64,000 nucleotides of DNA from NCBI GenBank assembly GCA_004335835.1, contig RWJK01001591.1:41566-105565 (forward strand), read 5' to 3'. The translations under genes were made by a program, and so were the position numbers. Below the pieces are notes generated by a model. It saw only the letters and a program-made list of their open reading frames with translations. It was not told the DNA's origin and ran no database searches. Below, in pieces: positions 3,101 through 61,196 of this stretch (its first letter is position 1; the number at the start of each line of letters is the position of its first letter). This DNA comes from Scenedesmus sp. ARA3. Its lineage: Eukaryota; Chlorophyta; Chlorophyceae; Sphaeropleales; Scenedesmaceae.

Positions 3101-5087
3101 CGGCGCCCACTGCAAGCGGCTGCTGACTCCTGCTGTCTGCTGCCCTTGCACGAACTCTGCGCCGTCTGGCCTCACGCATGGCATCCACGTTGTCGCGGAG
3201 CTTTCAACATCAACATGCATGACTCTGGTGACCTGTGCTGACGTCTGGCTGCTTGCTTCTGCTTGCAGGAACGCTGCTCTATCTGGCCTCACGCATGACA
3301 TCCACGCTGACGTGGAGGGCAACGACAAGATCCAGGAGATGCACGACGATGCTGAGAAGTTTGACCCACGCACAGAGGAGGTGTTCAAGGTGGGTTACAA
3401 ATGCTTCACTAACACAGTAACGACAGGCCTTCAACATTAGCCGGGCATGACGCACATGTGTGCTATTCCATTCCTGCACCTTGCTTGTGTGGAGCTTGCT
3501 AGTGCCAGCAACACATGCAGCGCGCGCTGTTCCCCTGCAGCCTGTTCATTAGGTGCGAGCAAACTGGTGACCATCATGCACTGTTACTAACACATGTAAC
3601 TAACACATGTTACTTGTCACTACCTGTGCTGTGTTGCGGCCTGCAGGTGCTGCAGGTCATCTCTGCGTGCGCCATGGCCTTCGCCCACGGAGCCAACGAT
3701 GTGGCCAACGCCATCGGCTCCTTCGCTGCTGCCCTGATGGTGTACAAGACCTTCAAGGTGCCCTCCTCTAACAGGTGAGCCACTTGCGTATTCTCCATCA
3801 TCTGCAGCTGTTTGCTAAGCTGTGATCCTTCGGATGCTGGCTACCGCAGTGCAACGCATTGATTTGCAACCCATTTGCGACGTATGCTTGTGTGGCGGCT
3901 GGAACTCAACCCTTGACGACTGCTCAGAATTTAAAAGCACTCTCGCGACACCACCTGATGAAGCACGCGTAGCTGCCAACCATTTCTTTCGGGCAATGCC
4001 CTGCCCAACATGACACCTGCGGCTGCCTGTGTTGCTACTTCCTGCAGTGACACCGAGCTGTGGATCCTGGCTCTGGGAGGCTCTGGTATCGTGGTGGGCC
4101 TTGCCACATATGGCTACAACATCATGCGCGTGCTGGGCGTCAAGTGCACACACATCACACCCTCTCGCGGGTGAGTGCGGGCGCATCTCGGCTGTCTGCA
4201 GCTTGTAGTAGACTGGCTGTGCCAGTTTCAGGTGGCAGTGCATGACCTGGCATGATTGCGGCATGCTGCGGAGCCGCACACGAGCGAATGCACCAGCACA
4301 CAGCACTGCTCACAGACAGCTACACTGCTGTCGAGGCACCACCTGACCCATGCCCCTGTGTTGACTGTCGTTGCTGCTTGCTGCTGCCAGTTTCTGCATG
4401 GAGCTGGCTACCTCCTTTGTGATTGCTGTGGGCTCAAGTTTTGGCCTGCCCCTGTCCACCACCCACACCATCACTGGAGCCACTGCTGGTGGCGGTGTGG
4501 CTGAGGGCCGCTGGAAGGCACTCAACTGGCTGCTGTACGCCAAGATGTTTGCCGGTGGGTTTAAACCTGCTGTTTGTAGCTTGCAGGATGTGCTTCGCCT
4601 GCATGTGGACATACATTTTGGTGTGATTTCAGCTGCTGTTGCTTGTACAGCATCCCACCATGTGTACGGCAACCCTGATTGTGCTGCCGCTGTAGTTCTA
4701 CTTGCTGCCGCTGTGCTGACAGTTTGTTGTGCTGCTGTGTTCTCTCCTGCAGGCTGGGTGTTCACCCTCATCATCACCGCTGCCATCTCAGCAGTCATCT
4801 TCCTGCTGGGCACCCACACTCCCTCCCAGATCGACCAGGTGCAGCTGCGCAACTACCAGGAGTCGATGCTGCAGCAGGGCAACCAGACCCTGGCGTTCCT
4901 GGCCGCGGAGAACAACAACCTGAAGCCTATGAACATGCCGCTGATGGACAGCATTGTAGAGCTGGGCACGCAGAACAGCGACCTGCTCGAGAGCAAGCTG
5001 TGGCTGCCGGCGGAGAATGTGACCAGCAACTTTGACAGCGTGCAGAGCCTGCTGATGAACTTCACCACCTTTGCAGTGCCCAAGTAA
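137..5087 (+). CDS. PiT/PHO4-family phosphate transporter
   Basis: Moves inorganic phosphate across a membrane, presumably by cation symport (family knowledge: PiT/PHO4, called PTB in Chlamydomonas). Fourteen exons join in phase: 137-148, 318-341, 502-538, 757-783, 1053-1123, 1382-1511, 1721-1789, 2051-2307, 2653-2957, 3269-3389, 3647-3774, 4048-4170, 4391-4554, 4753-5087, giving 600 residues. Both inverted-repeat PiT signatures are visible: [17 protein letters not shown] near the N terminus and [12 protein letters not shown] in the second half. They are followed by the paired [11 protein letters not shown] and [11 protein letters not shown] motifs. A hydrophilic charged loop (exons 9-10) separates the two transport halves and a polar tail ends the protein. 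The first four coding exons are only 12, 24, 37 and 27 nt. The start is the ATG at 137, which gives [13 protein letters not shown] degenerate copy of the exon-10 start lies in the intron before it. Family certain; paralogue and membrane not resolved. Confidence 0.93.
3143..3318 (+). repeat. Exon-start duplication inside phosphate transporter gene
   Basis: The stretch 3143-3200 repeats 3262-3318, the acceptor and first 50 nt of the exon starting at 3269. They share GGCCTCACGCATG.CATCCACG. The upstream copy has GCAC where the real exon has the GCAG acceptor, so it should not be spliced. Period about 118 bp. Confidence 0.8.
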
Positions 5088-5211
5088 ATCTTGAGCGCAA
5101 GCGGTGTGGACAAAAGCCACACGGATATGCATTGTGTGAGCATTTGATTCCGCATGCGAGACAGCGGAGACGGCGTGTGTGTGATGCATGCTCGGGGGTT
5201 GTTTGCCTGCC

Positions 5212-5398
5212 GAGCGTGGGTGCTGTAATGCTATCAGCAGCATGGCGCTTGAGCTGAATCCAATGTGAGCGCAGATGCGGCATTTTGTCAGTGGTGCGCC
5301 TATCGAGCGTGGGTGCTGTGGATGCTATCAGCAGCATGGAAGCCACGAGCTGAATCCAATGTGAGCACAGAGGCGATATTTTGTCAGTAGTGCGCAAC
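5212..5398. repeat. 93-bp direct repeat, two copies
   Basis: 5212-5304 and 5305-5398 are diverged tandem copies that both begin GAGCGTGGGTGCTGT and both contain GCTGAATCCAATGTGAGC. They lie in or just past the 3' UTR of the phosphate transporter. Confidence 0.8.
5224..5228 (+). terminator. TGTAA poly(A) signal of phosphate transporter
   Basis: TGTAA, the usual chlorophyte polyadenylation motif, lies about 137 nt after the stop at 5087. Confidence 0.45.
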
Positions 5399-8051
5399 AG
5401 TGACTTGCTGTTGCGCACGCCATCCTGCACGCCGATCAAGGCGGTGCAAGTGACATAAGATGCAGCGCCTGCTGCGATCCCATCGTGCTGATGCATGCAT
5501 GAAGCACAATCCTACTTGTTGCTGCATGTCTGTGCAGTTACATGGAAAGAAAGAGGGTACATCTGGCAGAGTGCAGTGTCTTTGTATCAGCTGCCAAACC
5601 TAATCCCAGGGCCCAGTGTCAGGTGGTGACCAATCCTCTTGGGTGCTCTGCAAATAGAGACTGATTCAATGCAGACAGAGCAGTCACTTGCTCTGCAGCC
5701 ACTCTCGAGGCACAAGGACAGGGGTGCTGCTTTTCAGCTTATCACAGCACTGGTGGTGTTTGTGCACAGAGATTGTTCAGAGTTTCAGATACGGCTGGGT
5801 TCTGTGTGCTGCGCATGCATATTATTGAGCTGCAGTTCCTTTCGGTCCTGCAGCACAGCAACCCGATCCCTGATACACCTGGCTTCCGCGGTTAAGGGTG
5901 TGTGTGGTGCGAGCACCTGCTGTGAGTGCCTCGCTTGCCGCATGGTTTGCATGTTATGTCAGTGTGTGTTTTGGTCAACAATTGTTTGACCATGTCCGAG
6001 AGCAACCCAATCCGACTGCGAAGGGAGTGCGTGCATTTCACAGGGCGAGTATATATGCCATCAAATGCTTTAAAGGCCAAAGGGCTAGAGATGAGGCATA
6101 CGTCGGCACTGCTGCTGCATAGCGGCCGTCAGCATGCAATCACATACTACATCAGCAGCTGTGAGAGTTGGCGGGCTCAGGTGGTTACTTACAATAGATC
6201 ATTTCATATACTATAAGTATGGATGGCATGCATGGCTCTACGTATCCAATCCTATGCAAGAGTAGTGTTAAGGGCCGCGCTTGTACCAGCTTACACAGCA
6301 TGGAAGTGGGAACCGTAGACTTCCATGTCCAACACAGGGCATGGCAGGTCACGGCTTGTCACACTTTGTTGCGAATGTCCAGCTTCGTCTGTGGCATTCT
6401 CACATTTGCTTCAGGATGCAGCTTGCTCAGCAACTGCTGCACAATAGGTTGGAAGGAATGTTGTTGTCCAGGTTCTGTGATGTTGACTCTGTCTCTCATA
6501 TCCACAATCGAGCACAGCCTGCCGTCTCTCTTGCACAGCACACGGGCTTGCTGCTTGAGGTCTGAAACTGCATCATCAGCAGAGTTGGGCCTGCGCGGTG
6601 CCTTGCACAGGCGCCTGTCAGGTGTTGGTGGATGTTTCACAGGCCAGGATGGTGCACAACACAGGAGTTGTGCATGCACTGCTACTGTTCCTGTTCAGAT
6701 ACTGTGGCACACCAGCCACAATCGGGTGCAATTGATTCATTGCATGTAATGCACCTCTTCAAAAGCATCCGCGCTTGCCGGCAGGATGGTGCTGCACTGT
6801 GAGGCATGTCGAATAAATCTTTGCGGGGTTGAGGGCGTGTTGTTCGGTGTCACCCGGTCTGCTAGTGTTGGGCATGCGCGTGGTTGCAAAGCATTGCTGA
6901 CTTGTGGTCAGCTGCAGCGCTTGATGCCCCACGGTTGTTTGTTGCATGCTTGCATGCCAAGAGCGTGCGGGTGTTGCTACTGTTCCTATTGTTTGTCATG
7001 CTGAGGGCGATGGTGCTGTTGGACAGCTTGATGGTACCTTCTGATCAAAACAATCGTTTTTTTAGGCTAAAACGCTACTGCTGTCGCCATCAGGGCGGCA
7101 GCGGCTCTGCCTTGCAAGTGTACTCGCTATATTATCAAGCAGCTCTGCTGTGTGGAGCCAGCAGACACTGTAATCTGCATGCACGGTGAACCTCTTGATA
7201 CTGTCACCTGCAACTCTTCAATCAGACACTCTGGCCAGGTCCATGGACCGTGCGCCTCGAGGCGCAAAGAACAGCAACAGCTGCTTGCCATGTAAATGCA
7301 CATGTGGGCTGCTGATGAACAACATGACATCGACATGCACATGTGGGCTGCTGATGAACAACATGACATCGACAATGCGGGTGGCAATCAAGTTCAAGCA
7401 GCTGCGAGGGTGCTCGCGGCTCAGCTAGATGCAGTCCAGCTTGCTTACTTAGGGCCTTTGCAACAGCAATGCTGTGTCAGCCGTTGACAGTGTGCGGCAA
7501 TGTTGTCCGCTGATGCTTGGGCTGATGCCCGGATGACTGCAGATGTCACATACCATCATCGTGTCACATTTCATGTCACATACGTAAGTTACGTTGATCA
7601 TGTTACATGACATGAGCACTGTGCCTGTTCTTCGCGCCAATGACAGACTCATGACGCAACCACCAGATTGCTGTAGCAGTGTGGGCTGCTACCACGCCAC
7701 AGCCAGTCGTACAGGTATAAGAGCGTCCGCCATCAGCAAGCAGTCCCGGCATCCATCCATAGGGCGGGCCATGCACTGTACAGGCAGCCAGTGGTACAGC
7801 GATAGGCAATAAAAGCAATCATTGCCAGTGGGCCACAAATAGGCCATAATAGCACGACAACAGCAACAGGAGAGCCTGCCTGCAAGGCTGTGCCCAAGCA
7901 AGCTGGCATCCCATGAAATCCGAGCAACCTTTTGGTGTAGAGCAACTCAAAATTGACAGCAACTCTAGTCAAGCAGCGCTGTTTGAAAACTGGCATGCTG
8001 CGCGCCGCACTGCAGCAGCAACCAGCCTGCTGCTGTGCTATGCAGGCCAGC
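5399..8051. other. Long non-coding stretch
   Basis: About 2.65 kb with short open frames on both strands but no chain of exons, domain or signal I can support. The only structure seen is the 39-bp tandem duplication at 7296-7373. Confidence 0.5.
7296..7373. repeat. 39-bp tandem duplication
   Basis: Two near-identical head-to-tail copies (7296-7334 and 7335-7373) beginning ATGCACATGTGGGCTGC and ending CATGACATCGAC. No function is evident. Confidence 0.9.
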
Positions 8052-10723: not shown

Positions 10724-10809
10724 TCATACCATGCCCTCTGCACTGCCTGCCTGCACTTCCGCTGCCTCCCCATCTGCCACACTTGCTGCTGCTGACGCAT
10801 CACCCCCAA

Positions 10810-10855
<46 letters not shown>

Positions 10856-12457: not shown

Positions 12458-14347
12458 ATGCAGTTGTTTGTGAGGGATAGCGAGACGCTGGTGCTGGACG
12501 CATGCGAGCAGACAACCATCGCGGAGCTGAAGGCAGCCTATGCAGCACGCAAAGCCTACGGTATCGATGCTGAGCAGGCTTTGGTAAGTTTACAAACCTT
12601 CTGTTCTTACGAGTCACGATATGCTGAGCAGGGTCCGGCCTGCATGGCAGCAGCAGCAGCATATGCCCTCACTGTGGCCTGGTCCGTCCTGTTTCTTTGC
12701 ATGGTAGCTGCTCTTTAGAGACCCGCTATCGGATCCTCAACTTCGCAACACACAGCATACATGTCGCCGTGCCATCATGTGCATCACAGCACCCGTGCTC
12801 CAGCTCATGCTGTCTCCATGCCTGCACATTCTGCAGGTCTTGCTGCACCACAGCAGGCAGCTGCAGGACAATGCCACGCTAGCAGAGGCAGCACTGTACA
12901 ATGGCGCTACGCTGTCAGTTTGCAGCAGGCTACGAGGCGGCGGTGGCGATGGCGGCAGCACGGGTGCGGAGAGCAGGAGCTGTTACTTGGAGATGTATGC
13001 GCAGCGCAAGCCTGATAAGGTGAGTGCTGGAGTCTTGGCATGCTGCAGGATTGTGTCTGAGATACAGTTGTGTATCGCTTCGCGTCTGCAGTGCATGCCA
13101 TTGCAACCGGCAACAGCAGTAGCAGCCTAGACGTTGCTTATCTGCTGCATGTTGGTCCTGTCCGTACGGTGTGCAGCAGGTGCCTGCTTCTCTGTTGGTT
13201 GATTGCTCCTGCATGGTCAGCAGCTCTCAGCATGGCAGATTTGTACAATCAGCAGTTTGATTGCGCGGGCGGTTCAGCCGCATGCCGCACATTCACAGCA
13301 CTCACGTGTGTGCACACGCACAACAATATAACCATACCTCCTCTCTCGCATGCCGCCCTGATGCACACAGGTCAACCCTCTAGAGGAGCCGCTGGCGCGC
13401 AGCACACTACCCACATCTAAGCTCATGCACAAAAGCACTGTGACCTGCAAATAATCACACACCATTCCGTCTCCTGCTGCTGCAATGTGCAGGTGAACCC
13501 CCTAGAGGAGCTGCTGGCTCGCAGCACGCGCTGCCGGCTGTCAGGCGAGCGGCTGGCCCCACCCTGCGTGGCAGATGAGCTGGGCAGCCTTTTCAACAAG
13601 GAAGCAGTAGTACACGCGCTGCTGAACAAGACCATGCCTGCAGCACTCTCGCACATAACGAGCTTGAAGGCAGTTGTTAATCTCAAGCTGGAGCCTGCAC
13701 ACAAGGTCGGCGGCAGCAGCAGCAGCAGCAACGGCAAAAACGGCAAGGCCCACGGCAGCAGCAGCAGCAGTGATGCGGCAGACTTCCAGTGCCCGGTGAC
13801 TGGGCTGGAGTTGAATGGGCGCTTCCAGTTTGTCATTCACCGGTCGACAGGGCAGGTGCTGAGTGAGCGGGCGCTGAGGGAGGCTCCTGCAGCAGTAGAG
13901 GAGCTGCTGGGGGGCAAGTGGGCAGCAGATGATTTAGTACCTGTGAATCCGCAGGGGGAGGAGCTAGAGAAGCGGCAGCAGGCGGTGGCGGCAGCAGCAG
14001 CAGCGGAGCGCGCAAAGAAGAAGGCTAAGAAAGCAGGCAAGGAGAAGGAGAGGGAGAAGGCAGCAGCAGCAGCAGCAGCAGCATTGGATGGTGCTGGTGT
14101 TGCAGGGGCAGTTGCGGATGCTGCAGATGGTGTAGCAGCAGTTGGCAGCAAGCGGCCGCCGGCGGCGCCGCCAGCAGCAGCGGCAGCAGCAGCAGTAGCA
14201 GCTGGTGGGGCAGCAGCAGCAAAGAAGCTGAAGCTTCCGGCGGGTGCGACGCCAGAGGTATATGCGTCCATCTTTTCAACAGGAAAGCCGAAGATGAAGG
14301 AGACCTACTGCTGCAGATCTGCTTCGGGCAGGGGCCTTGGAATGTGA
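12458..14347 (+). CDS. RTF2: RTF2 (replication termination factor 2) with N-terminal ubiquitin-like domain
   Basis: RTF2 acts at stalled replication forks in yeast and animals and in nuclear RNA processing in plants (family knowledge). Three exons (12458-12583, 12837-13019, 13493-14347) join to 387 residues. Residues 1-77 are ubiquitin-like, starting MQLFVRDSETLVL and ending SRLRGG at 72-77. The RTF2 core follows: NPLEELLARSTRCRLSGERL, then ELGSLFNKEAVVHALL (a divergent U-box/RING-like fold), then FQCPVTGLELNGRFQF and LSERALREA. A low-complexity Ala/Lys-rich linker leads to the conserved PEVYASIFSTGK and the tail KETYCCRSASGRG. Where relatives have a cysteine cluster before SERALKE, this protein has HRSTGQ, and the later CxxC pair is also absent. 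A decoy copy of the exon-3 start lies upstream in intron 2. Confidence 0.92.
13370..13533 (+). repeat. Decoy duplicate of RTF2 exon-3 start
   Basis: 13370-13413 (CAGGTCAACCCTCTAGAGGA...) repeats 13490-13533 (CAGGTGAACCCCCTAGAGGA...), including the CAG acceptor and about 45 nt of exon. The upstream copy then diverges and reaches a stop. Confidence 0.85.
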
Positions 14348-14891: not shown

Positions 14892-15908
14892 ATGGACCTG
14901 CTTACGGGCTACGGCAGTGGATCGGACTCTGAAACTGAAGTCGACGTCCCGAATCGTATCCTGGCCAGCAGAACGGCCGTCGAGGCAGCCCCAGCTGTGA
15001 CTAGCACAGCACCAGCAGCACCTGCAGCAGCAGCAAAGAAGCCCAGCCTCTTCGGCAGCTTTCCAGGCCCTAAGCATGCTGCCTCTGCTGCTGCACCTGC
15101 CGTAGAAGCAGCTCCTGGGCTGCCTCCTGGCTTCTTCGATAGCCCTGCAACAGCAGCACCACCCGAGAGCAGCAGCGCTGCAGCACCTGCAGGCCTGCCC
15201 AGCAACTTCTTTGATGCAGCACCCAGCAGCACAGCAGCAGCGGCTGCAGCTGAAGAAGCAGAAGCAGCGCCAGGGCCAGCGCTGCGGCCGCCTCCTGCAG
15301 CAGTAGCAGACCTCCCGCAGCCAAGTGACCTAAAGCTGTGGTCAAAGCTGCCAGCTGCAAACAAGCGCAAGGTCACCCTGCGGCCCAAAATAGACATGGC
15401 ACTGCTGGCAGCATCTGACAGCGATGAGGATGATGCAGCACCAGCAGCTAAGAAGGCAAAGCCGGCAGCAGCAGCAGCAGGCAAGCCGAGTATACTTAGC
15501 TTCCTGCCGGCGCCAAAGCATGCGCCTAAAGGGCCAAAGGGCGGTGGCAGCAGCAGCGGCATGCTAGGGGGTGGAGGTGGCACGCGGCTTGACACAGGCG
15601 GTGGCCTTAGCAGCGAGCAGCAGCAGCAACGCAGTGCGGATGATGCAAGGCAAGCAGCGCCCGCCCCAGCAGCTATCAGCAATGAAGCCTTCCGCATGCG
15701 GCCAGCTGCAGCAGCAGCAGCAGCAGCAGCAGCAGATGATGGCAGCAGCGGCGGCTACGGGTACGCTGCACAGCAGTACCAGCAGCAGCAGTACGATGCG
15801 CAGCAGTACCACCAGCAGTATGCTGCAGCAGGCAGCGCTGGCTATGACTATAGCTCCTACTACCAAGGTGCTGCCGCTACAGCCGCACCCGCAGCAGCAG
15901 CAAGCCGC

Positions 15909-15945
<37 letters not shown>

Positions 15946-16325
15946 TGCATCCTGAGGAAGCCCTCTTGCAGGAAGCTCTGCAGGCAGAAGCAGCAAAGGC
16001 AGCGCGGCGCGGCGCTGGCTCTGGCAGCTCCCAATTAGTCATGCCTGACATCCAGTTCAAAGAGGTCAAAGCAGATGCAATCAAGTATGTGGATCCAGCG
16101 CAGCGCGAGGCCGCGCAAGGCATGCGGGCCGCGCTGGGTGCCGATTACGCTGTGAAGCTGCGCGCCGAGGCTGCGCCGCATACTGGCAGCAAGCTGGCGC
16201 GCAGCAAGCACCAGATCGGCACGCTGTTTGCGAATGCCAAGCTGCGGGAGCTGGAGGTGCTGGAGAACAGGGCCGCGGGCATGAAGTCCAAGGCTGAAAC
16301 GGCCGGCAAGTACGGCTGGCGCTGA
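14892..16325 (+). CDS. PRCC-like nuclear protein, intronless
   Basis: A single open frame of 477 residues beginning MDLLTGYGSGSDSETEVDV; the upstream in-frame codons lack an ATG. Low-complexity Ala/Gln-rich sequence carries repeated short motifs: KKPSLFGSFPGPKH, GFFDSP, NFFDAA and KPSILSFLPAPKH. The SDLKLWSKLP and KRKVTLRP segments, an acidic SDSDEDD patch and a Tyr/Gln-rich prion-like stretch (QQYQQQQYDAQQYHQQY) follow. The C-terminal 80 residues match the PRCC family tail: MPDIQFKEV, then SKHQIGTLFANAKLRELEVL, then AETAGKYGWR at the stop. Human PRCC is a nuclear protein that interacts with the spliceosome and MAD2B, so a role in nuclear RNA processing is inferred. Two broken copies of the tail follow the gene. 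Confidence 0.82.
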
Positions 16326-19043: not shown

Positions 19044-19097
<54 letters not shown>

Positions 19098-21926
19098 CAG
19101 GGCCCCACCGCCAGGGCCCCACCGCCAGCCCCACCCCCACCCCTACGCTGTGCACAGCACACACTGCAGCTGTCGCCCCCCGAAACTCCAACGCGGACTG
19201 TCATGCACACAGTATACTCACGTGCCCCCTTGCCCTGTGCGAAGGCCATGGCCAGTGCATATAGGTCGTCAGCACGCTGTCTTTCGGCCTTCACCTGGCC
19301 CTCCTTGGCCTGCAGCAGCTGCTGGTACAGCGCCTCCTGCAAGCAAGAAGCAATATGGTGCAGCAACACAGCAGCAGGCATCTCAGCATCTCAAGCCAAG
19401 CAGCAGCGCGTGTTGGCCTCCACCTCGCCCTCCTTGGCCTGCAGCAGCTGCTGGTTCAGCGCCTCCTGCAAGCATCAGGTACCAGAGCACACCAACGCAG
19501 CACACAGAAGAGCTGAGCACTTCTGATACAGCAGCTTTAGAGGCGCGGCAGCTGCGGCGCTTCCTTCGCCTCTCATGAAAGCTGCTGCCCATGCTCCTGC
19601 AGCATTGCAGCGCCCGCACGACTCTCGACAGACGTGCTGTGTCGCGCAGCAGTGATTGCGTGCCAACGCAGTGTGCGTTAGTTGCAGGGCACCCACCAGC
19701 AGCCAAGCCATCGACCACAGGTGGGCGCCGCTAGTTGTTTGGCAGATCTATGCATGACTTGGATGTAACCACTGCCAGAGGCCGCGCAGCAACGGTCATC
19801 ATTACAGCAGCAGCAGCAGCGGCGGCAGCATACCCAGTTGAAAATGCTGATAATCACCCTCCCCTGGCCTGCTGCCCACCTTGTCGTCTGTCTCAACGAT
19901 GATGATCAGCAGCAGCAGCAGCAGCAGCGGCATCAACATGAACGCATCACACTGGTCCAACCAGCCCGACTGCCTGCTGCCCACCTTGTCGTCTGTCATG
20001 CCGCCCGTGCTGCTGCGGGCCTTCTTGCTGCTGGCAGGCGTGGCTGCTGACTTGGCCTTGTTTGCGGAGCGCCGCTGCCGCCGGGAGCCCTGCAGCGACA
20101 CCAGACGGGCCCCACGCAGCAGATAGAGTAGTATCAGCAGCAGCAGCAGCAGCAGCAGCAGCATGCAAACAGATCAGGCAGGCAGCGGGCTGGTGTTAGA
20201 ATCTGTATGTGTGCCACTAGGCATTGCGCCATGCGCGTAGCGGAGCGCCGCTGCCGCCGGGAGCCCTGCAGCGACACCAGACATGGCCACCGAAGCAGAC
20301 AGCGCAGCAGCAGCAGCAGCAGCAGCAGGCAGGGTGAGGAGCAGGCCGCGGGTCAGAGTAGACAGATGCATCACTGCCTTGTGGCGCAGATGCATGCATA
20401 CATGTGTGCACACATCCAAAAGCAACGGCATTCAGGCACTGTGGACATACGATTCAACCAACGGCTCATACATGCACTCTCAACAGCGCCTGCTGTTTCA
20501 GTCTATGCTCGCTGCTGTGGCAGCAGCCAGGGGCGCGCCATGTCACTGGCGCGATGTGTGTTTGCACGCCTTACCTCATCATCGCCTTCCTCCTCAACCT
20601 CCGCGCCATCCTCCCCATCTGCTGCTGCTGCTGCTGCCGCATAATACACCGGTCACCTCTGTACATGCAAAATGCTATCAAAATGCTTTACATGCAACAA
20701 CCAATCTCACTGTCAACACCTACCTCATCTCCCTCCTCCTCATCCAATTCCACATCATCCCCATCTGCTGCTGCTGCTGCTGCTGCCGCCTTGGCCTGTG
20801 TTGCGCTCTTAGGCGGCCGCCCCGGCCCCCTGCGCTGCTGCTCGCTCTTGGGCGGCCTGCCTGGCTTGCGCTTCCCTGGCTGTGGCTGTGCCACATCCAG
20901 CCTCACATCGTCCAGCTCACAGTCAGCACCCAGCCCTTGCTCCTGCAAGCAGTGTGATTGGTGCAGTGAGTGAAGAGTGCTGCGGGCGCAAGGGCTGCGC
21001 CTGCCTCACATCGTCCTAGTCACAGTCAGCACCTAGCCCTTGCTCCTGCAGGCAGTGGGGTTGGTGCAGTAGTCGTCAGCTGGCACAAACAGCAGTGCTG
21101 CAGTGTACAGGGGTGTGCCACATCACGTGTCACGTCGTCCAGCTCACAGTCAGCAGCCAGCCCTTGCTCCTGCAGGCAGTGCGGATGGTGCAAAGAAAGA
21201 CAGTCTTGCAGGTGCGCTCAGAACTCACAGTCAGCACCCAGCCCTTGCTCCTGCAAGAAGTGTGGTTGGGATTTGTTTAGCGGTCAAATGACACACACAG
21301 CAGTACTGCAGGCACAAGGCTGTGCCACATCCAGTCTCACATCGTCCAGCTCACAGTCAGCACCCAGCCCTTGCTCCTGCAAGCAGTGGGGTTGGTGTAG
21401 AAGTTGTCAGCTGGCACACACAGCAGTNNNNNNNNNNNNNNNNNNNNNNNNNNNNNNNNNNNNNNNNNNNNNNNNNNNNACTGCAGGCACAAGGCTGTGC
21501 CACATCCAGTCTCACATCGTCCAGCTCACAGTCAGCACCCAGGCCTTGCTCCTGCAAGCAGTGCGGATGGTGCAGTGATCGAACAGCGCTGCGGGCATTG
21601 TCTCAGTGATAGTCAGCACTCAGCCCCTTGCTCCTGCAGGCAGTGGGGTTGGTGCGGTTATACACCGATGCACTCAGGGATAGTTGGTGCTTTCAATATT
21701 ATGGAGTACAAAACGAACGCATGCAAACCAACGTGTGAGGCAAAGTACGATAAGGCTTCAAAAGATGATGCAGTTGCAGACTACTGCATGGCATGCTGCA
21801 CACACCTTTGCCAGGACCCTGACTTTGTGGTACTCCTTGTTGGCAGCGTCCTCATCACCGTTGTTCTTTGCAAGCACATCAGCCCACAGCTGAGGGAAGG
21901 CACGCTCCCTGCAACACACCAGCAGC

Positions 21927-21979
<53 letters not shown>

Positions 21980-25746: not shown

Positions 25747-25827
<81 letters not shown>

Positions 25828-41436: not shown

Positions 41437-41489
<53 letters not shown>

Positions 41490-48707: not shown

Positions 48708-51700
48708 TTACTTGTTGCCAAAGCCCTTGCCGCTGCTGGTAGGGCTTGCGCTGCGTGTGGCGCCCCGCTTACCGCCCTTCTTCCCACCCGCAGCAGCACC
48801 TGCACCCGCAGGCACCTTGAAGCTCTCACCATTGCCAGATTCATCACCCCCCGCTGCCTCTGCACTTGCCACACTCGCCGCCGCAGCAGCAGGTGTCCCG
48901 GATGCTCCGGATGCTGCTTGCGCCTTCACACTGTCCAGCTTTGTGCGCAGCTCGGCCACGAGCTTCTCTGCTGCCAGCCTGCTGCGGCGCTCCTCGGAGA
49001 GCTCCTGCTGCGCTGACTCAGCGCTGCTGCGGGCCTGGTCCATGTCAGCACGCGCTGCCGCAAGCTGCGCCTCGATCTGCAACATGCAAAAGAGCAACAC
49101 CGCAAGGCAGGGCATCAGCTTGGGGGCACATGGCAGCAATAGGCGGCCAGGTAACTTTGCACATATGAAGTAACTTGCAGGTGCTAGATGCTGGCCTCCT
49201 GCAAGCAGTGCCATTTGTTATGTAGTACAGCGCAGTAGTCTGATGTTCAGTGCTAAGATCGCCACCAAGTAGGCTGCAACATAGCGTGATACAGTGCACG
49301 CTGCAGGTGGCACGCACCTGGCTCAGCTGCTCGCGTGCGCTGTTGCCCTCTGCCGTTGCCGCCTCCGCGCGCGACTGCGCGTCGTTCAGCTGCTGCTGCG
49401 CTGCCTCCAGCTTGGAGGCCACCTCCTGCTGCTGCCCCAGCAGCTCAAACTCTGCAGCAGCACGCAGCAGCACAGAGCAGCGCTCAGCGAACTCCCCACC
49501 CAAACAGCAAGGCATTTAAAAAAAGGAAGAGCTGCGTCCCCAGCACTGCCACTGACACCGCTGCAGCAAACACCAACAGCAACAATCAATATGCCCTCCT
49601 CCTGCTTTACTCGACATCCTCGCGCACCTCGCACCTCGCCTGCAGGCCATATACACACGCGTGCTGCGCTCGCACGATGCAGGCTGTCAAAGACCCTAGA
49701 CCATAGGCTCTTCACCCTAGGCCCTAGACCCTAGAACCCAGGCCCTAGCCCCTAGGCCCTAGACCCTAGGGACCCCAGACCCTCACCTGCGGTGCGGCTG
49801 GCTGTGCGCAGCTGCACCAGCTCCCGCTCCGCGCTGGCCAGCTTGCTGACCATGTCCTTCTGGCTGTCCTGCAGCCGCGCCAGCTCAGCCGCGCTGCTGC
49901 TGGTGCTCTGCGGGAGGAAGGGAGAGACACAGCACGAGTAAGCAGGGAGTGACACAGAGCAGAGGGGCCGTGATGACAAGGGGCCATGATGGCATACTGC
50001 GCTCACTTGAGATGTGCACAGGCACAAGCAGTGCACTGTGTGTGCTGATCATTGGGCAGCGCATGCTGCTGCGTCTGCCCTCCTAGCTCACACGCACTGA
50101 GACGCCCACCTGCTCGGCAAGTGCCTGGCTGCTCTCCAGCTGCTGCTGCAGGGCCTGCGCCTGCTGCTCTGCTGCTGCGCGGGCAGCCTCAATGTCAGCC
50201 ACGCGGGCCTCAGCAGCAGACAGCTGGCGGGCGTAGTCGGCCTTTAGCTCATTGACCTGCAGAGACACAGTCAGCACAACACAGTGGCAGATATGCCAGT
50301 GGGCAGCCCAGCAGCATGGCATTGGTGCATCAGCGGCAGACAGCTGGCGGGCGTAGTCGGCCTTCAGCTCATTGACCTGAGAGTGAGGCACAAGGAGCAC
50401 AACAAACACAATGCCAGATATGTCAGATATGCCAGAGCCCAGCCCAGCAGCACGGTAGAAATGTTTGCATCCCGTAAAAGGAAGCAGTGAAGTGTGGTTC
50501 ACCCGGGTTGCGGCATTGACAGGTGATGCTGGTGCAGGGTCAGCGGCATGCCGAACCGTCTTTGCAGATCAAACGACTTCACGTTTTGGTCTGGCCGATG
50601 TGTTGCATCACCACCACATGTTTGAGCCGTCACACATGCACAGACATGAAAATGCTGAACATACAGGCAGAAGTGCAGACCGCAGCGCATGCGTGCGATA
50701 TAGATGTAAGAGGTGCCACATGTATGCAGTGCAACCGCCCTGCGTATGCCGCAGGCCTCACCTGCTTGCTCAGCTGCTATTGCTGCTCTCAACATTGTGT
50801 CAAGGCATGAATGCACTCATGCGATGCAGCATACGTTCGATATATGCCGCAGGCCTCAAAGCGCTCACCTGCTTGCCCAGGCTGCTGTTGCTGCTCTCCA
50901 GGTCGCCGACCTGCCGCTCCAGCTCGCTCACTGCGCGCTTCAGCGCCATGCTGCTGTTCTGCTCCGCCTCAAGCAGGTCGCCTGGCGGCAGCAGAGGTGA
51001 ACACGACAAAAAAATGTGGTACAGCAGGGGCAGCGGTGTTGTTGACTATGTACTATGAATTGAGCAATGGTCATGTTGCCATGCGTGTCATCCCGTGTGC
51101 AGACAGTCGGCATGAGGTGCAGCGCCCAGCCAGCAAAGTAGCGACCTCCAATCAACAACAACTCCTGTAGATCCATCTGAAAAGGTTTCAAGCCCCCATT
51201 TGCACGCACCTGCGGTGATGTACTCGCTCTTGATGGCCTCCAGCTGGCTGCGCAGCTCGCTGCTGCTGCTGCGCTCCTCCTCCAGCTGCGCGGCAGTGTC
51301 AGCCAGCGCCTCCTTCACACTGCCAAGCTCACTGGTGAGCTCGCTGGTCTGGGCACGCAGCCCGGAGTTGGCTGCCTGCTCTGTGCTCAGCAACTTCTCA
51401 GTGGCCTCCACCTGGGCCTGCAGGATATGTGATGCAACATGTTGCATGGTGTGGGTGCTGCGCAACCGGCACTTTCCTCTATGCAATTGAAAACTGCTGA
51501 CAGCTGAGCATTTGATGCATCTCGATGTCCACACAACTTTCTTCAAACACTTTGATGTAAACATGCCGCATCATCAATCACCTGCAGGTTGCGCATCTCG
51601 CGGCGCAGCTTCTCTGCTGTGTCCTGCGCTGCCTCCAGCTCAGCGCTGAGGCTGACAACCTTGCCCTCGGCATCCTCCAGGTCGGCCTGTGCCTGAGTGT

Positions 51701-54700
51701 ACAGGCTCTGCAGCTTGGACGCCTGCAGCAGCAGCAGCAGGAGCTCAGCCGGTCAATGCTGAGCAGTTGCAGCTAGGCAGCAATGCGGCTGCCTTTCTCA
51801 TGGTTCAACCACGGTGCTGTTGGCATGATGCTTAGGATGAGCAGCTTGATACACAGCAGCAGGACTTGGACCCAGCAGCATCTGGAGCTGGGCGCTGCAA
51901 TGACAACAGCACACCACAGTCAACACAGAGCTAACAGCAGCATGCAGGACGCGCAGTCAGGTATGTGGCGCAGGGCCGCACCTGCGCCCGCTCCTGCTCC
52001 AGCTGTGCAGCCACGTCGTTGTACTCTGCCTCTGCCTGTGCCCTGAACTTGCTGGCCTCCTCAGCCTCTGCTGCTGCACGCGCAGCGAGCTCAGCTGCCT
52101 GCTGCTTCAGCTTGGTCATGGCGTCCTTCATGCCTGCAGGCGCAACAGGAGCATGCAAGGAGACGGTTGACTAATGGTTGACTAACGGTTGACTAACATA
52201 TGACCAAGAACCAGGGCTGTGTGCTTGATTGGCAGAGCCGCATTACAGGTGCATGTAACATTTTGCATCGACTGCCAGCTGGCAAAGCCGAGCGCTTGGT
52301 GTGCTGTACTTTCAAGCGTACGAACTAACATGCCCAAACAGGCTGTATGCAAGCTTGCAGGGAGATGCAAATGTGCATCTACAGATGCAAATGTGCACCA
52401 GGTGGGTTGCGCACCTGTGCCCTCCACCTGCAGGTTGTTGATGATCTCCTGCTGCTCAGCCACGCTGGCAGTAGCAGAGTCAAGGCTGGCCAGCGCATTG
52501 GAGAGCTGCGCCTGCAGCAGCAGAAGCAGCAGGCAGGGCGAGCAGTGTAAGTATGTGTGTGCGCCGGCATCCCCTGGCTGCACTTTGTTGAAAAAAGTTA
52601 ATTCTCAATGGTTGGTGCTTCAGCAGCAGGCATGGCACAGCAAGGTGCTGCAAACTGTAGACACAGAGCACTATGCAGAAGTGTATACACCATGCAGGAG
52701 CAGCTTCTGTTGAGTGACCACTGAGGCACTCACTACATGCTGCCACAGAACCACCCAGGTCTGGCATGCTGTAAGCCATGCTGATCTATGCTGAACCACT
52801 GCTGCTAGCGCCCCCGCACCTGTGCTGCAGCCAGCTCTGCCGCCTCCCCATCTGTCTCCTCCCCCATGCTCTATACTAGACGCAATATGCTGCCTGCTAC
52901 ATGCTGTGCTCAACCACTGCTGCTAGCGCCCTGCACCTGTGCTGCAGCAAGCTCTGCCGCCTTTGCATCCGTCTCCCCGCCCATGCTACCCAAACCCAAC
53001 CATTTCTGGCATGCCACGCTACACATATCACCAAGAACTGCTGCTAGCCCCGCGCACCTGTGCTGCAGCAAGCTCTGCCGCCTTTGCGTCCGTCTCCTCG
53101 CCCATGCTGCTCAGGGCAGCCGCCTGCTGCGCCACCTGCGCTGACGCCTCCTCCAGCATGCGGCGCACCTCGCCAGCCTCCGCCTGCAGCAGCAGAAGAG
53201 GCAATTGGTATGCTAAAACACATGTACAATACAATCCCAACTGCAGCTGAACCGTGCTGAGGCCTCCTCCAGCATGCGGCGCACCTCGCCAGCCTCCGCC
53301 TGCAGCAGCAGCATGAGAGGCAATTGGTCTGTTGAAACACATGTGCACTTGATTGTCAAAGCCCGACAGGGCTGACGCCTCCTCCAGCATGCGGCGCACC
53401 TCGCCAGCCTCCGCCTGCAGCAGCAGCATGAGAGGCAATTGGTCTGTTGAAACACATGTACACTTGATTGTCAAACCCTGACAGTGCTGACGCCTCCTCC
53501 AGCATGCGGCGCACCTCACCAGCCTCCGCCTGCAGCAGCAGAAACAATCGCATCTCTCTGTCACTACGCATGGACACTCGCGAGTCAGTTTTGGACTAGC
53601 TAACCAGTGCTGACGCCTCCTCCAGCATGCGGCGCACCTCGCCAGCCTCCGCCTGCAGCAGCAGAAGAGGCAATTGTTCTCTGTGACAGACACGCACAGT
53701 CATTTGTCAGTTGCCGGCTGCAGCAAAACAGGGCTGACGCCTCCTCCTCCAACATGCGGCGCACCTCGCCAGCCTCCGCCTGCACAGCAGCATGAGAGGC
53801 AATTGGTCTGTTGAAACACATTTACACTTGAATGTCACAGCCCGACAGTGCCTCCTCCAGCATGCGGCGCACCTCACCAGCCTCCGCGTGCACGGCAGCA
53901 GAGATGCACGTACATGCTTCACCTCTCAGCTGCTTGCTATCTTAGACAATGTTGCAGTTCTGAGGCAGCAGACAATACAAATACCTGCAGTTCCTTGAAC
54001 ACACACTCCCCATGGCTTCTGCTGAGACGTGCTCGCTCCAAGTTAACAGCACAGGCAGTACAAACAATACACCGCACGCACGCAAATCCACTAACTCCTT
54101 CCACAAGCACTCTGCACAGCTTCTGCCACAACGCACACGCTCAAGCGCCGAACACAAGCAACACAAATACACATACATCACACCCACGCACCTGTGCGGC
54201 AAACTTTGCTGCGCGCTCCGCCTCCAGCAGCTCAGCTGATGCAGCCGCATTCAGCGCCTCGACGAGCCGCTGTATGTGTGCCAATCCTGAGGCAACAAAC
54301 CATGAATGACAATGCAAATCCACTACATCATGTCACAAGCACTCTGCACACCTTGTGCCACGACGTGCCCGCTCAAGCGCACAGCACAAGCAGACACACA
54401 TACATACATTCCGCTGTACTCCACCCACGCACCTGCGCAGCAAACTTTGCTGCGCGCTCCGCCTCCAGCAGCTCCGCTGATGCAGCCGCCTCGTCCTTCA
54501 TCGCCTCAACAAGCCGCTTCTCAGCAGCCAGCGCACGCGTGGCCAGCTCAGCAGCACGCTGCGCAGCCTCGCGCTCCTGCAAGCAGCGGCATTGGATGCA
54601 GATGATGGTTACATGCAGGTGGTTGCATGCTGACGCGTTGCATGCAGCGTGGCACAACACCCATGTGTTGCGTCTGGCACAGTGACACAGACACAAGCGC

Positions 54701-55061: not shown

Positions 55062-55115
<54 letters not shown>

Positions 55116-57680
55116 AGTTCATCTTTTTGAGTGCCTGATTATGTGATGACAGCCGTTGATGCAGCTGCTCTGCAGCGCAGGCCCTCATACGCACACTCTG
55201 GCAAGTAAATGTTAGTCGGGGCCATGTGCTGCTGCTGGCTGACTGTCCATGAGCGCACTACAGCTGCTGTTGTGCATATTGTGGCCTTTGAGACATGTGG
55301 GCTCCGCATGGCACAGCACAGCCCCAGAGCGTCGCAAACGCGACTTGCTACAACTGTAACTGTCTAGGATGGATCAATCGCCTGCTTGCATGCAACTGAC
55401 TGTGATATCTCTGTCAACAGCAGCTGCGGCAGCGCGCACCTGCGCCTTCAGTGCCTCTACTGCTGAGCGCTCAGCAGCCAGCTTGTCATCCAGCGCAGCC
55501 TGCAGGAAGCACACACACACACGAGCACGACTCAGCACACACGGGCGCTTCAGAGACAAAGCACAAGCCGCACGGATCGCAGCTGCACCAGCTAAACAGA
55601 AGCAAGCTTATACAATTGCTGGTGAATGCTGCTTGCGCTCAATGCCTCAGGAGGCTGCCTGCTGCTGGTCAGCTCTAGCAGCTGTCAGACAGCATGGCAG
55701 CGGCCCAGCCAGGTTTGAAGCATCCAGATGCGCGTCGGAAAACAATCAACTGTATTGAACTTCGCCCAGAGACTGTAACTATGGAGGCTGTCTGCTGGGT
55801 TGAGAATCATCCAAGTGTAGTTGCTGCGGCTGTCTGAAGCTATCTGCAGGGAAGTGCTATCGCACCTCATTCTCTTTTTTCTGCATCAGCACCACGCCTG
55901 CCGGACCTGACTGAATGCATACGTGCTGGTAATCTCGCTGCTTGTAGCAGGACACTGCTGTACCTATCTGCAGCTATCTGCCGGGGCCTTTGCTGCCCCA
56001 CCTCAGTCTCCTTCTTCGGCATCAGCACAATGCCTGCTGAACCTGGCTGAATCTATATGTGCTGGTAATCTTGACTGCTTGTAGCAGGGCACTCCTGTAG
56101 CTATCTGCAGCTATCTGCTGGGGCCTTTGCTGCCGCACCTCGGTCTCCTTCTTCTGCATCAGCGCAATGCCTGCTGCTCCGGCTCCCAGCAGCAGCCCAA
56201 TGGCAGCACCAGGGTTGATGAAGCTGCTAGCCTCCAGGTCAGCAGCATCCACGGCAACAGACGGCGCCGGCTGCACAAATTTGACCAATGTTTGACCACA
56301 GGTTTGACCACAGGTTTGACCAGCAGCAACACCAGCAGCAGCAGCAGCAGGAGCAGTAGTGTCAGCAGGGCAGCCACTGCAGAAGGTGGCGGCAGGTTGG
56401 TGCATGGTCAGTTGCTTGGGGCACTGTTGTGTGGGCAGCATGGACGAGCTTGCTGACTGTCACAGCTGCTATACAGCATGACATACAGCCCAAGTCTGCA
56501 GACGAGCGTATTCACCGCAATCAATGTACGAACACAAAGCATGTATATCGTCGAAAGGCGGTCACCAACTGCAGCAGTGCACTGTCAGGCAGCGCTGTTA
56601 CCCAAGCCCAACAGCAAGCATTGGCTAGCTTGCCAATCCGCCGCAGAATTGCTGCCATTGCTTGACTGGTCGTGGGCGAGCACAGCCTGTAAACTACCCT
56701 CACCCTGGATGCAGCGACCAGCTCAGCGCGGCGTGCTGCTTCCTTTGCCTCTGCCTGCGCTGCCTGCGCCTGCGCCTGTGCCCGCTGCAGCTCCTGCTGC
56801 GCTGCATCCAGCTGCTTCTGCAGGTCGCCCAGGCGCTGCTTGTCCTCAAAAGACAGCTGCGCAACCGGCTTTGACTGCAGGGCCTCATACTCCTGTGCAG
56901 CAGCAGCAGCAGCAGTTGAAGAGCATACCCTTGATATCCTTGCAGTCTGCTGTGGATGTAGGTGGCCAGACTTCAGCACCAGAGCCAATTGCAAGTCGAT
57001 GATGATAAAGTGCTCCTGCGTGTGGGTCTCAGGCCTCAGAGGCGCTCATGTAAGCTGGCTTGTGCTGCCATCTACGCCTGGCAGCTGCATCTTGCATGCC
57101 AGCCTGACCATCTGCTTGGACTCAGCACTTGTCAGGCCCCGGCTGGCGTCTTCAAAGCACCGACTATGGGCCAACTGTGGTATGTGATCATAAAACATCT
57201 AAAGCAGCTGCAGGTTCACTCGCTACCAATTCACAGATTGTCAACAAGGCAGTAACAGCAAGAGTGGCACCAGCAGCAGCAGCACTGCTGCACCAGTCAG
57301 CAAGCTCACCAGCATTGCAGGAGACCGTGTCAGCATCGGCAGGGCCCTCCCATTGCCTGTCCGTGAAGCAATTATCTCCTCCATTGCCGCAGCTGCGTTT
57401 TGGGACTCGACATATGAGCTGGCCACTGCCGGCTGCAGTGCCTGCAGGTACACAATTGCGGTGTCGGCGCAATTGATCGAAACATCATTGTTTGACAAGA
57501 GCACTTTATTCAGCCTACCAACAGCACGGAGGCCATGCCAGCCAATCCCGCTGCAGCAGCTTGGTCAAGGCGAGTGCTGTGGGGCCTGATGACGTTGCAT
57601 TGTACGCTTAAACGAGTGCAACGAGAATTGCGAGCAAGAGGCCGGCCCAGTGGGCGGCACGTCTGCCTGTGCACAAGCAT
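48708..57680 (-). CDS. Long plastid-targeted coiled-coil protein with membrane segment (MFP1-like layout)
   Basis: Seventeen exons join in phase to 846 residues: 57519-57680, 57310-57441, 56704-56892, 56139-56270, 55440-55499, 54937-55050, 54433-54576, 53058-53183, 52415-52511, 51982-52133, 51582-51722, 51210-51417, 50869-50981, 50110-50256, 49787-49907, 49318-49451, 48708-49076. The first 60 residues look like a transit peptide plus hydrophobic transfer segment (AAAAGLAGMASVLL, then ALQPAVAS). A second hydrophobic segment, about 178-199, reads FINPGAAIGLLLGAGAAGIALM. From about 200 to 770 it is almost continuous heptad coiled coil (AELLEAERAAKFAAQ, SELERQVGDLESSNSSLGKQ, VNELKADYARQLSAA). The C terminus is basic and Gly/Ser-rich (KKGGKRGATRSASPTSS). 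Thylakoid-associated MFP1 has a similar layout; homology is not shown, so the role is unknown. Six exon edges are duplicated. Confidence 0.76.
49688..49785. repeat. Degenerate CCCTAGR minisatellite
   Basis: About a dozen imperfect copies of CCCTAGA/CCCTAGG (for example CCCTAGGCCCTAGACCCTAG) sit in the intron just upstream, in gene sense, of the exon ending at 49787. It resembles a decayed plant-type telomere repeat (CCCTAAA). Confidence 0.85.
50197..50383 (-). repeat. Duplicated exon start (VNELKADYARQLSAA)
   Basis: The exon start at 50256 recurs in the preceding intron at about 50331-50382 with only one or two changes, period about 126 bp. It still has an AG (CTCAG) in front. Confidence 0.88.
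52805..53110 (-). repeat. Triplicated exon end (GEETDAKAAELAAAQ)
   Basis: The end of the exon at 53058 (TGCTGCAGCACAG and donor GTGCGC) recurs near 52931 and 52816, both in the following intron. The copies carry small substitutions. Confidence 0.85.
53135..53895 (-). repeat. Seven-copy exon-start array (AEAGEVRRMLEEA)
   Basis: Seven copies at a 110-125 bp period begin (in sense) at about 53183, 53300, 53418, 53532, 53651, 53776 and 53884. Each has CTGCAG or similar before GCGGAGGCTGGCGAGGTGCG. Only the lowest-coordinate copy continues into the full exon. Each unit also holds GAG|GTGCGC, a donor-like site that would make an in-frame 15-nt micro-exon (AEAGE). Confidence 0.92.
54190..54513 (-). 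repeat. Duplicated exon end (AELLEAERAAKFAAQ)
   Basis: The end of the exon at 54433 recurs at about 54193-54290 in the following intron, including the GTGCGTGGG donor. The nearest AG before the copy is out of phase, so it is unlikely to be a normal exon. Confidence 0.85.
55062..55112. repeat. CAG microsatellite
   Basis: About 16 CAG triplets in the intron 5' of the exon topping at 55050. The sense-strand CTG run lies just before that exon's acceptor. Confidence 0.95.
55858..56170 (-). repeat. Triplicated membrane-exon end (GIALMQKKETE)
   Basis: The exon end at 56139 recurs near 56001 (GIVLMPKKETE) and 55865 (GVVLMQKKENE), each followed by a GTG donor-like sequence and each in the following intron. 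Confidence 0.88.
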
Positions 57681-58855: not shown

Positions 58856-61043
58856 ATGCAGCAGGGCCGGGATGGCGCAGGGCCCAGCAACGCGCCCGTG
58901 CTGCACCGGCCGGCAGCAACTCAGCCCGCCCCCTTCCACATCAGCTGCCTGCTGGAGTTCCAGGATGCCCGCATCGAGGCAGCCTACCAGCACTACATGT
59001 ACAAGATGCAGCAGACAGCAGACGTGTGCCTCATCATCATCAATGTATTCGCAGTGCTGGTAGCACTGGTCAAACAATACGCAATGCCAGTCGCCAGCGG
59101 CCCGCCCACAGCAGCACTCTACCTGCTGTCAGGCAGCCAATCCCTGGCGCTGCTTGCGCTGCTGCTGACAGCGCCAGCAGCATACGCGCGCCACAGAGGG
59201 CTCATCATCGGTTGTACACGCATGTACCGCCTCGCAGTGTGGCTGCTGTACCTGCGGGAGCCGTATCCGCCGCGGCTCTTCCGGCGCAACTTATCGCTGC
59301 GGCTGTTTCTGATGTCCCCTGCGGGCGGCAATGTGTGGCTAGCGCTGTTTTATCCGCTGCCGCTGTCGCTGCACCTGCTGCTGCTGGGGCTGTCTTCACT
59401 GGTGGCGACTTGGAGGAGCTCAGCCTTGCAGGACCGGCTGTCACACCTTGATATTTCACAGGAGCAGCTGGCGCACGCGTACAAGCAGCTGTCGCGCTTT
59501 TCAAAGTGAGTGTGTGTAACATGTTGTTACGAGTGTGTGACAAACAGAGTGTGATGAGCTGCACGAGCCGGGCTTGGCGCACTGCTGGTCCTGGCTGCAG
59601 CAGCTGCATACAAACGTGTCTGTGATGGTGTGCTGGGGCACCAGCATGCAATTCCTTGAGCCAATAGGTAGCAGCAAACAGCAGCTGTGTTACATGTGAA
59701 GCATCCCTGCAGCTGTTGCCAAAGGTCTTCAAACTGACGGTCACCCGCAGCCTGGATGGTCATGTCGCCAGCCACAGAAATATGCCGATTACAGCCACTT
59801 GCTGGGGTCAAGTGCAGCTAGCAGACAGCAGCAGGGTGGCTTCATGTTACTGATGTCAATGTGTGCGGGTTGCCCGGTTTTCTTGCACATGTGTGCCTGG
59901 TGGGGCTGCATGTGGGGCGCACTGCCCACACAAACATGCGGGTTCATCGTCACTGCTTGCTACAAACCCTGGCCACCTGTAACTCTCTACTGCTGCCTGC
60001 TGTCACTGCTGCTGTCGCTGCAGGTTTTTTGAGATGCCGAGTGGCCGGCTGCTGCAGCGCTGGCCGGCGCCCTCCCTGACAGACGCGGACCGCGTGTGGT
60101 GCATGTACGCATTCGTGGCGCTGGTGTACGGCCTGCTGCTGCCGCTGCTGCTGCTGTTCATCAAAGAGGTGCACTTTAGAGGTGAGGCCTGCTGCTGGGT
60201 GGTCAGCTGGCAGCATCGCATCATGTGTGTTTCATGTGCCTTGGTGTGCGCAGCAGCTGCTGCATGTCATGCGTGAGTTGCGCCGCGTGAGTTGCTGTGT
60301 AACTGACCGGGGCCGTGCGATTTTGCCATACAGTAACTGTGTGCGGCTCCCTTGCATGTCCAGCACATCTCTCAGCCAGCGTTGACTTGTACTGCCAGCC
60401 AGCGTTGACTTGTACTGCCAGCCAGCGTTGACTTGTACTGCGTTGCCAGCGTTGACTTGTACTGCCTGGCCTGCTGCAAATTGTGCTGCCTGCAGTCCGC
60501 TTCCTGTACTGGCTGCATGCCCCAACTTGGTACTGCCTGCACCAACGTGGTTGGTTTGTACTGCCTGCCCTGCCGCCACTTGTACTGCCTGCAGTCCGCT
60601 TCCTGTACTGCCTGCGGCCAGCCGTCAGCGAGTCTCACATGAACAGCCTGCGCAACGCGCTGTACAGCATCACCACAGCAGCATGCTTCCTCACCGTCAC
60701 AATGGTGCCATGCGCTTGGAGTCTGGTCCAGCTGGCCTCCCGCTACCTTGCAGCACAGCAGGGCCAGCTGAAGGCAGATGGGGTGCTGTTTTTGTTAACT
60801 GTCGTGAGCTTGGAAGTCTTCATGCGCTTCTGGCTGCTGGCAGTAATGCAGCAGGCAATGCAGCGCGTGGTGAGGCCTGGAATGCTGTGGCTGCTGCTGC
60901 GGATGTCGGGGCTGCAGGCGCGCAGCGCGGCGCTGCTGACGACGGCTGCGCCAGGTCAGCAGCAGCAGCAGCAGCAGCTGCAGCAGGGGGCGGGCAGCGG
61001 GGCGGCTGCTGGCGTGAGTGCAGCAGGGCTGCGGCAGCGGCCT

Positions 61044-61074
<31 letters not shown>

Positions 61075-61082: not shown

Positions 61083-61138
61083 AGTGCACCAGTGCTTTTG
61101 GGTTGGTGTGTGTTGCAGCAGGGCTGCGGCAGCGGCCT

Positions 61139-61174
<36 letters not shown>

Positions 61175-61196
61175 GCAGCAGCGGCAGGCATGTGAA
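61011..61196 (+). repeat. Duplicated 3' end of membrane-protein gene with CAG runs
   Basis: GCAGGGCTGCGGCAGCGGCC plus a CAG run and GGCATGTGAAGTG occurs twice, ending near 61086 and 61198. The second copy is in the 3' UTR unless the alternative intron from 61013 is used. Confidence 0.88.

Follow-up and report, generated by a model that had tools for sequence, protein, structure and literature searches.

Tandem duplications across exon edges as a probable source of lengthening introns and 3′ untranslated regions in a scenedesmacean alga

Why should the edges of so many exons stand repeated beside the exons themselves? The question is raised by a 64,000-nt stretch of contig RWJK01001591.1 of Scenedesmus sp. 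ARA3 (GC content 56.5%), hereafter the window, in which segments that span a splice junction or a stop codon recur in adjoining introns or 3′ untranslated regions (UTRs). The sources of growing or new introns have rarely been identified, according to one account (PMC4974935). The copies analysed here suggest, with moderate confidence, that the introns and 3′ UTRs of this alga grow by ordinary tandem duplication, on which selection and intron turnover then act as filters.

Repeated exon edges in the window and in the sampled genome

Together with 40 kb alongside it and stretches from 11 other contigs (about 258–259 kb in all), the window was compared with itself; the assembly comprises 87.3 Mb in 1567 contigs. 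One stretch (L017), in which 7399 of 10000 bases are N, was excluded from every count. Arrays were detected by this self-comparison and by Tandem Repeats Finder (TRF), with simple repeats masked and a cluster threshold of at least 44 bits, and genes were modelled by a home-made hidden Markov model (HMM) gene finder trained on the sampled sequences themselves. For the window, a curated set of 24 clusters was formed from the 21 detected, two more seen under lighter masking (29402 and 30478; clusters are named by their first position) and a 39-bp doublet at 7296, while a CAG-rich pair at 61010–61138 and the remaining short TRF arrays were dropped. Edges at which the gene finder placed no junction follow the curator's reading of frames and splice motifs, the weakest being those at 60451 and 30478.

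The copies lie on a coding edge in 22 of the 24 curated clusters (13 exon starts, seven exon ends and two stop-codon ends), with two to seven copies per array, confirming the repeated exon edges described in a first-pass annotation of this DNA. Twenty of the 24 cross a splice junction, and two have no coding edge. Copy numbers in arrays 20884 and 35520 are lower bounds, since runs of N lie inside both. For 15 of the 21 window clusters detected, the gene finder predicts a junction in the copies or no more than 8 bp from them; the curator read two of these otherwise, taking 16235 to be a stop-codon end and, at 19867, the opposite copy to be the functional one. As the annotation had also described, spare copies lie upstream of exon starts, downstream of exon ends and, for stop-codon ends, in the 3′ UTR, a placement that is partly forced because the functional copy was defined as the one contiguous with the remainder of the exon.

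Across the sample, self-comparison gave 76 local repeat clusters, 21 in the window and 55 outside it, six of the latter on the window's own contig. Clusters were found on eight of the 11 other sampled contigs, or nine of 12 when the window's contig is counted. With 76 clusters in 258 kb, a local duplication can be recognised about every 3.4 kb, and the duplications have added about 17 kb, that is, 6.6% of the 258 kb and about 10% of its predicted non-coding part. The growth of introns and 3′ UTRs by hidden local duplication is supported and, as the first-pass annotation had supposed, extends well beyond the window.

The copies are local and direct. Within 1500 bp, 143 were direct and one inverted; farther away, one of each was found. 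A whole-genome search with three of the arrays matched only their own loci in 87 Mb, and a dispersed element or introner was rejected for these three. Spacings of 80–139 bp account for 54 of 140 and spacings of 220–259 bp for 24 of 140 (arrays contribute multiples), and the shortage of units below 80 bp may partly be a detection limit. Internal matches at p<0.05 were present in 8 of 13 pairs spaced 200–300 bp and in 16 of 48 control pairs of 80–150 bp, which no more than suggests that the peak near 240 bp represents two steps of about 120 bp with a decayed middle copy. We doubt that the ∼240-bp pairs form a separate class, a decayed middle copy being possible, although the shorter control class shows matches too. 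As to microhomology at the breakpoints, one perfect duplication has an overlap of 6 nt, and in the others the run contains mismatches.

As to tandem duplication of whole exons, curated window copies hold one edge; elsewhere in the sample, a predicted acceptor and a predicted donor occur together in some copies (C800b 21925, L008 276). At C800b 21925–22211 (L018 to L021 joined), a 41-nt stretch occurs three times, and two of its copies, with a predicted acceptor and donor, are possibly whole mini-exons.

Decay and survival of the duplications

A step in homology is present at the junction. At 13 exon-start loci, the functional and outermost copies share 0.78–1.0 identity over the first 30 exon bases, falling to 0.40–0.54 at intron positions 6–30, compared with 0.24–0.39 for unrelated acceptors (ungapped counts, which exaggerate intron decay where indels have occurred). 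The outermost spares at these loci retain 0.40–0.45 at 11–30 nt into the intron (control 0.24–0.27), and in the pooled intron flanks residual homology reaches about 40 nt. At seven exon-end loci, the last 20 exon bases show an identity of 0.74–1.0 and intron positions 7–10 one of 0.75 (control 0.32); beyond these, identity is 0.31–0.41 (control 0.22–0.33). Intron identity above control indicates that the units once included part of the intron, which has since decayed much further. Of 43 single pairs, 23 showed flank similarity at p<0.1 on the better side. Spacers within several arrays are alike, whereas the outermost copy mostly has a flank unlike them.

The first-pass annotation had proposed self-alignment around junctions, with random positions for comparison. 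In the sampled DNA, the probability that a cluster covers a predicted edge, P(edge), was compared between real clusters and randomly shifted pairs, leaving out five clusters of one stretch (L014). Edges were above chance, at 0.55 vs 0.37 overall (n=71, z 3.6), 0.65 vs 0.37 in the window (n=21, z 3.1) and 0.51 vs 0.36 outside it (n=50, z 2.6). The gene finder misses some curated edges (e.g. 23370 and 55822), which should depress observed and null values alike. However, the excess is confined to decayed duplications, those whose unit is recognisable only in part (0.57 vs 0.31, n=47, z 4.2). Full-unit duplications gave 0.52 vs 0.49 (n=24, z 0.4), and no edge excess was found by the same test among the more similar of them (at least 85%, n=8). 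This confinement is as differential survival would predict, and the edge enrichment looks like survivorship, with selection holding the functional copy fixed amid rapid turnover of intron sequence.

We infer that pinning and turnover are the cause, by the following route. Small tandem duplications, mostly about 80–140 bp apart, would arise throughout the genome without clear regard to splice junctions. Inside exons they would survive chiefly when in frame, and in introns or between genes they would be wiped out by fast turnover. Across an exon edge or a stop codon they would be retained, since selection would hold one copy in place and the other would be spliced out or sit in the 3′ UTR. Structural change would be unable to remove the functional half of such a pair, which would decay chiefly on one side because the functional copy is under selection. 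Repeated rounds would build arrays, introns and 3′ UTRs would lengthen, and the exon parts are probably renewed by some exchange among the copies. As to molecular origin, direct local copies are compatible with slippage as well as with fill-in end joining. Outside the window, three full-unit duplications consist mostly of predicted coding sequence, and their spacings (108, 72 and 81) are multiples of three, as are those of two non-coding ones (63 and 63). A perfect tandem duplication of 108 bp (36 codons) with a 6-nt breakpoint overlap is present in predicted coding sequence at L012 6798–7019.

Several results weigh against this explanation. By raw extension score, the exon side exceeded the intron side in no more than 13 of 28 functional–spare pairs, because inner array copies also share spacers. 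Among 31 single pairs, whether at an edge or elsewhere, 23 have a match covering at most 55% of the unit; a neutral decay simulation predicts such a match in only 5% of detected edge pairs, so that simple neutral decay is rejected. With structural turnover added (indels near the substitution rate), the simulated share rose to at most 54%, about half, and the modelled detection advantage of edges was only 1.2–1.9 fold; the shortfall needs either exchange between copies or constraint on the spares. Signs of one or the other are seen in two arrays. Among the six spares of array 53134, pairwise identity is 0.97 in the exon part, 0.88 in the 26 acceptor-adjacent intron bases and 0.74 in the rest of the spacer, near the random value of 0.68, and array 20884 shows a weaker gradient (0.91, 0.88 and 0.82 for exon, near intron and spacer). 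Furthermore, the spares retain AG or GT in 32 of 34 cases in an exon-registered count, two having lost the acceptor; the probability of this is 0.34 at 5% divergence, 0.03 at 10% and 5e-5 at 20%, for copies that are not independent. Spare acceptors score a mean of 3.31 vs 3.28 for functional ones and are thus not weakened, while spare donors are slightly lower (1.68 vs 2.12). Finally, nine of ten curated full-unit clusters in the window lie on an edge, which would allow a modest junction preference.

Two earlier claims are qualified accordingly. Copies with broken acceptors do exist, but they are few, at two of 34 spares. Growth through hidden duplication stands, but its description as purely neutral is doubtful in view of the failed decay simulation, the unweakened acceptors and the conserved exon parts of array 53134.

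Origin of the arrays and fate of the spare copies

Three other origins were weighed against duplication filtered by survival. A repair or replication process targeted to junctions, as the first-pass annotation had entertained, and acting perhaps through R-loops, positioned nucleosomes or CTG-rich acceptors, would suit the high proportion of curated window clusters on coding edges, full-unit ones included, and the CTG runs ahead of several acceptors. However, exon ends and stop codons are affected as well as acceptors, and by the automatic measure the full-unit duplications, including the more similar ones, lack an edge excess. Targeting as the main cause is rejected by the split shift test, with the caveat that the curated window count exceeds that of the HMM, and we consider it rather improbable. 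Copying of the exon edge alone, as a templated insertion or an RNA-derived copy pasted about 65 bp away, would explain why matches are short relative to spacing and why 20 of 43 single pairs lack flank similarity at p<0.1. Templated end-joining insertions are expected in both orientations, and the near-absence of inverted copies, together with the residual homology of the pooled intron flanks, rejects this origin in the pool. Several arrays are, moreover, similar across the whole unit, and edge-only copying is very unlikely. That the arrays are assembly artefacts is more improbable still: the N runs mark 20884 and 35520 as hard to assemble and the assembly is fragmented, but the copies carry private substitutions and indels, their spacers differ, and clusters occur on most of the sampled contigs.

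In one gene, which carries two arrays, the skipping of spares was checked against a protein. The hand-joined spliced model of the PPD6-like gene (42916 to 40384) matches protein P0013 of Tetradesmus obliquus at 99% over the full 275 amino acids, from which it follows that the spares of both arrays are skipped; they are skipped whole, with no new intron. This match identifies the alga as T. obliquus or a very close relative. In the protein search, no homologue of the predicted coiled-coil protein, whose gene carries array 53134, scored among the candidates examined. Spares at four loci carry lesions of frame or stop type: a single nucleotide is deleted at 33172 and at 40505, one is inserted at 20884, and a stop is present at 28739. 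Coding use of the spares as a general rule is rejected on these grounds. The earlier statement that the frame never includes the spares is therefore upheld in one gene by protein identity and backed by lesions at four loci. The 120 exon-part differences between functional and spare copies fall 24/31/65 by codon position (with the 50745 pair out of register), a third-position share above that of a free pair; 61 are synonymous, 58 nonsynonymous and one a stop.

The spare edges might instead be kept through use: they might serve as alternative, decoy or recursive splice sites, or some transcripts might include them as mini-exons. We regard this as unlikely, though not to be dismissed. The nearly complete retention of AG and GT, acceptor scores like those of functional sites and the homology step at the junction are all consistent with it, as is array 53134, in which the exon parts are conserved and all four substitutions listed ahead of the last codons, where indels intervene, are synonymous. 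Some spares are called exons by the gene finder (e.g. 19424–19465 and 53349–53429), which leaves room for their use in some transcripts. On the other side stand the lesions at four loci, the outermost 53134 copy, which retains its exon part despite a broken acceptor, and the T. obliquus protein, which lacks the spare peptides of the PPD6-like gene. Moreover, two arrays supply 12 of the 34 spares, which are thus not independent, and 32 intact sites are what 5% divergence would lead one to expect. The largely intact splice sites do allow a more surprising reading, in which the spares are maintained splice modules, i.e. extra acceptors or donors with an exon flank under selection that act as decoys, provide recursive steps or form a store of alternative exon edges. 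We think this improbable; if true, introns would be built from retained copies rather than junk.

The clusters and the genes named with them are collected in Table 1. The frame of the PRCC-domain gene is uninterrupted, while its neighbour genes are intron-rich. Runs of (CAG)n/(CTG)n are frequent in the window (e.g. 25748–25827 and 41437–41488), some of them directly upstream of acceptors. A 23-bp unit is repeated four times at 60373–60466, adjoining the 60451 pair.

Table 1. Curated duplication clusters and associated genes in the window, by position.
Feature	Position	Strand	Remarks
Exon start, phosphate transporter (PHO4) gene	3145..3317	+	Functional exon from 3269; one upstream spare, acceptor now AC
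Two-copy tandem duplication, no coding edge	5205..5395	.	After last predicted exon downstream of PHO4 gene
39-bp doublet, no coding edge identified	7296..7374	.	
Exon start, Rtf2 gene	13368..13529	+	One upstream spare; exon from 13493 (curated), 13508 (gene finder)
PRCC-domain gene	14892..16325	+	Single open frame, 477 amino acids
PRCC gene 3′ end including stop codon	16239..16838	+	Spares 16485–16578 and 16745–16838 in 3′ UTR
Exon start, junction 19336/19337	19286..19474	-	One upstream spare, 95% identity over 60 nt
Exon end, junction 19984/19985 (curated)	19867..19997	-	One downstream spare, 26 nt identical
Exon start, junction 20089/20090	20064..20282	-	One spare; 43 nt identical beside strongly diverged flank
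Exon start	20884..21661	-	Six spares; assembly gap (N, ∼21428–21479) inside array
Stop-codon end	23370..23704	-	Two spares in 3′ UTR; curated; gene finder: intergenic
Exon start, junction 28782/28783	28739..28930	-	One spare, in-frame stop
Exon start, junction 29448/29449	29402..29570	-	One spare
Probable exon start	30478..30562	-	One spare, 56 bp away
Exon start, exon from 33474	33172..33533	+	Two spares; ∼147-bp unit similar throughout; inner spare with 1-nt deletion
Exon end, papain-type cysteine protease, junction 35572/35573	35520..36161	+	Downstream spares; internal gap (N, ∼35736–35898)
PsbP-domain gene (PPD6-like)	40384..42916	-	Five exons, 275 amino acids with spares skipped; two arrays
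PPD6-like exon start, junction 40569/40570	40505..40705	-	One spare, 1-nt deletion
PPD6-like exon end, junction 42049/42050	41780..42089	-	Two downstream spares
Exon start, predicted coiled-coil gene, junction 50256/50257	50207..50426	-	One spare
Exon end, predicted coiled-coil gene, junction 50868/50869	50745..50898	-	One spare
Exon end, predicted coiled-coil gene, junction 53057/53058	52789..53113	-	Two spares
Exon start, junction 53183/53184, same exon as 52789 array	53134..53911	-	Six spares; outermost acceptor broken
Exon end, predicted coiled-coil gene, junction 54432/54433	54085..54518	-	Spare ∼240 bp off; intron also similar
Exon end, junction 56138/56139	55822..56176	-	Two spares, whole unit similar; curated; gene finder: intergenic
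Possible exon start, low-complexity, weakest case	60451..60615	+	One spare

Significance and comparison with known systems

The mean intron of T. obliquus is given as 462 bp, compared with 230–302 bp in four other green algae, in PMC5966456, and local edge duplication is a candidate cause of this length. A single genome here offers duplications from nearly identical to decayed, with the parent copy often fixed by coding selection, and rates of intronic duplication, decay and splice-site loss would become directly measurable.

Among the titles and abstract openings listed from the open-licence literature, no earlier description of such arrays was found. Introners (PMC9860276) likewise change intron content genome-wide, but they copy themselves into many genes, whereas the three arrays searched match their own locus only. 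Polyubiquitin-type repeats with dual-specific AGGT sites (PMC10809524) are also tandem repeats with several splice sites; their units are coding and their sites are used, whereas use of the spares in this alga is hypothetical. Small tandem duplications also arise, as demonstrated in mammalian cells, when breaks with 3′ overhangs are filled in (Schimmel et al. 2021, PMC8355091); they are homology-independent and, like those described here, direct, and this process is a candidate origin for the copies in this alga.

In the model of Rogers (1989; per PMC4974935 and Yenerall and Zhou 2012, PMC3443670), too, duplication is direct and local and splicing leaves the protein unchanged, but there an exonic segment bearing AGGT is duplicated to give a new intron. 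None of the 22 curated edge units is wholly exonic, each lying across an existing junction or stop codon, and the one protein-checked gene has gained no intron, so that the AGGT route invoked in the first-pass annotation is not borne out. Closest in form is the RNA-dependent RNA polymerase (RdRp) gene of potato (Ma, Lan and Niu 2016, PMC4974935), in which a tandem duplication across one intron–exon boundary had its splicing signals supplied by the parental junction. That case concerns one gene, and a new intron arose there via a cryptic donor in the former exon; in this alga the event is recurrent, with up to seven copies, and in the protein-checked gene old introns were merely lengthened. The phenomenon is a genome-scale variant of this known boundary-crossing tandem duplication.

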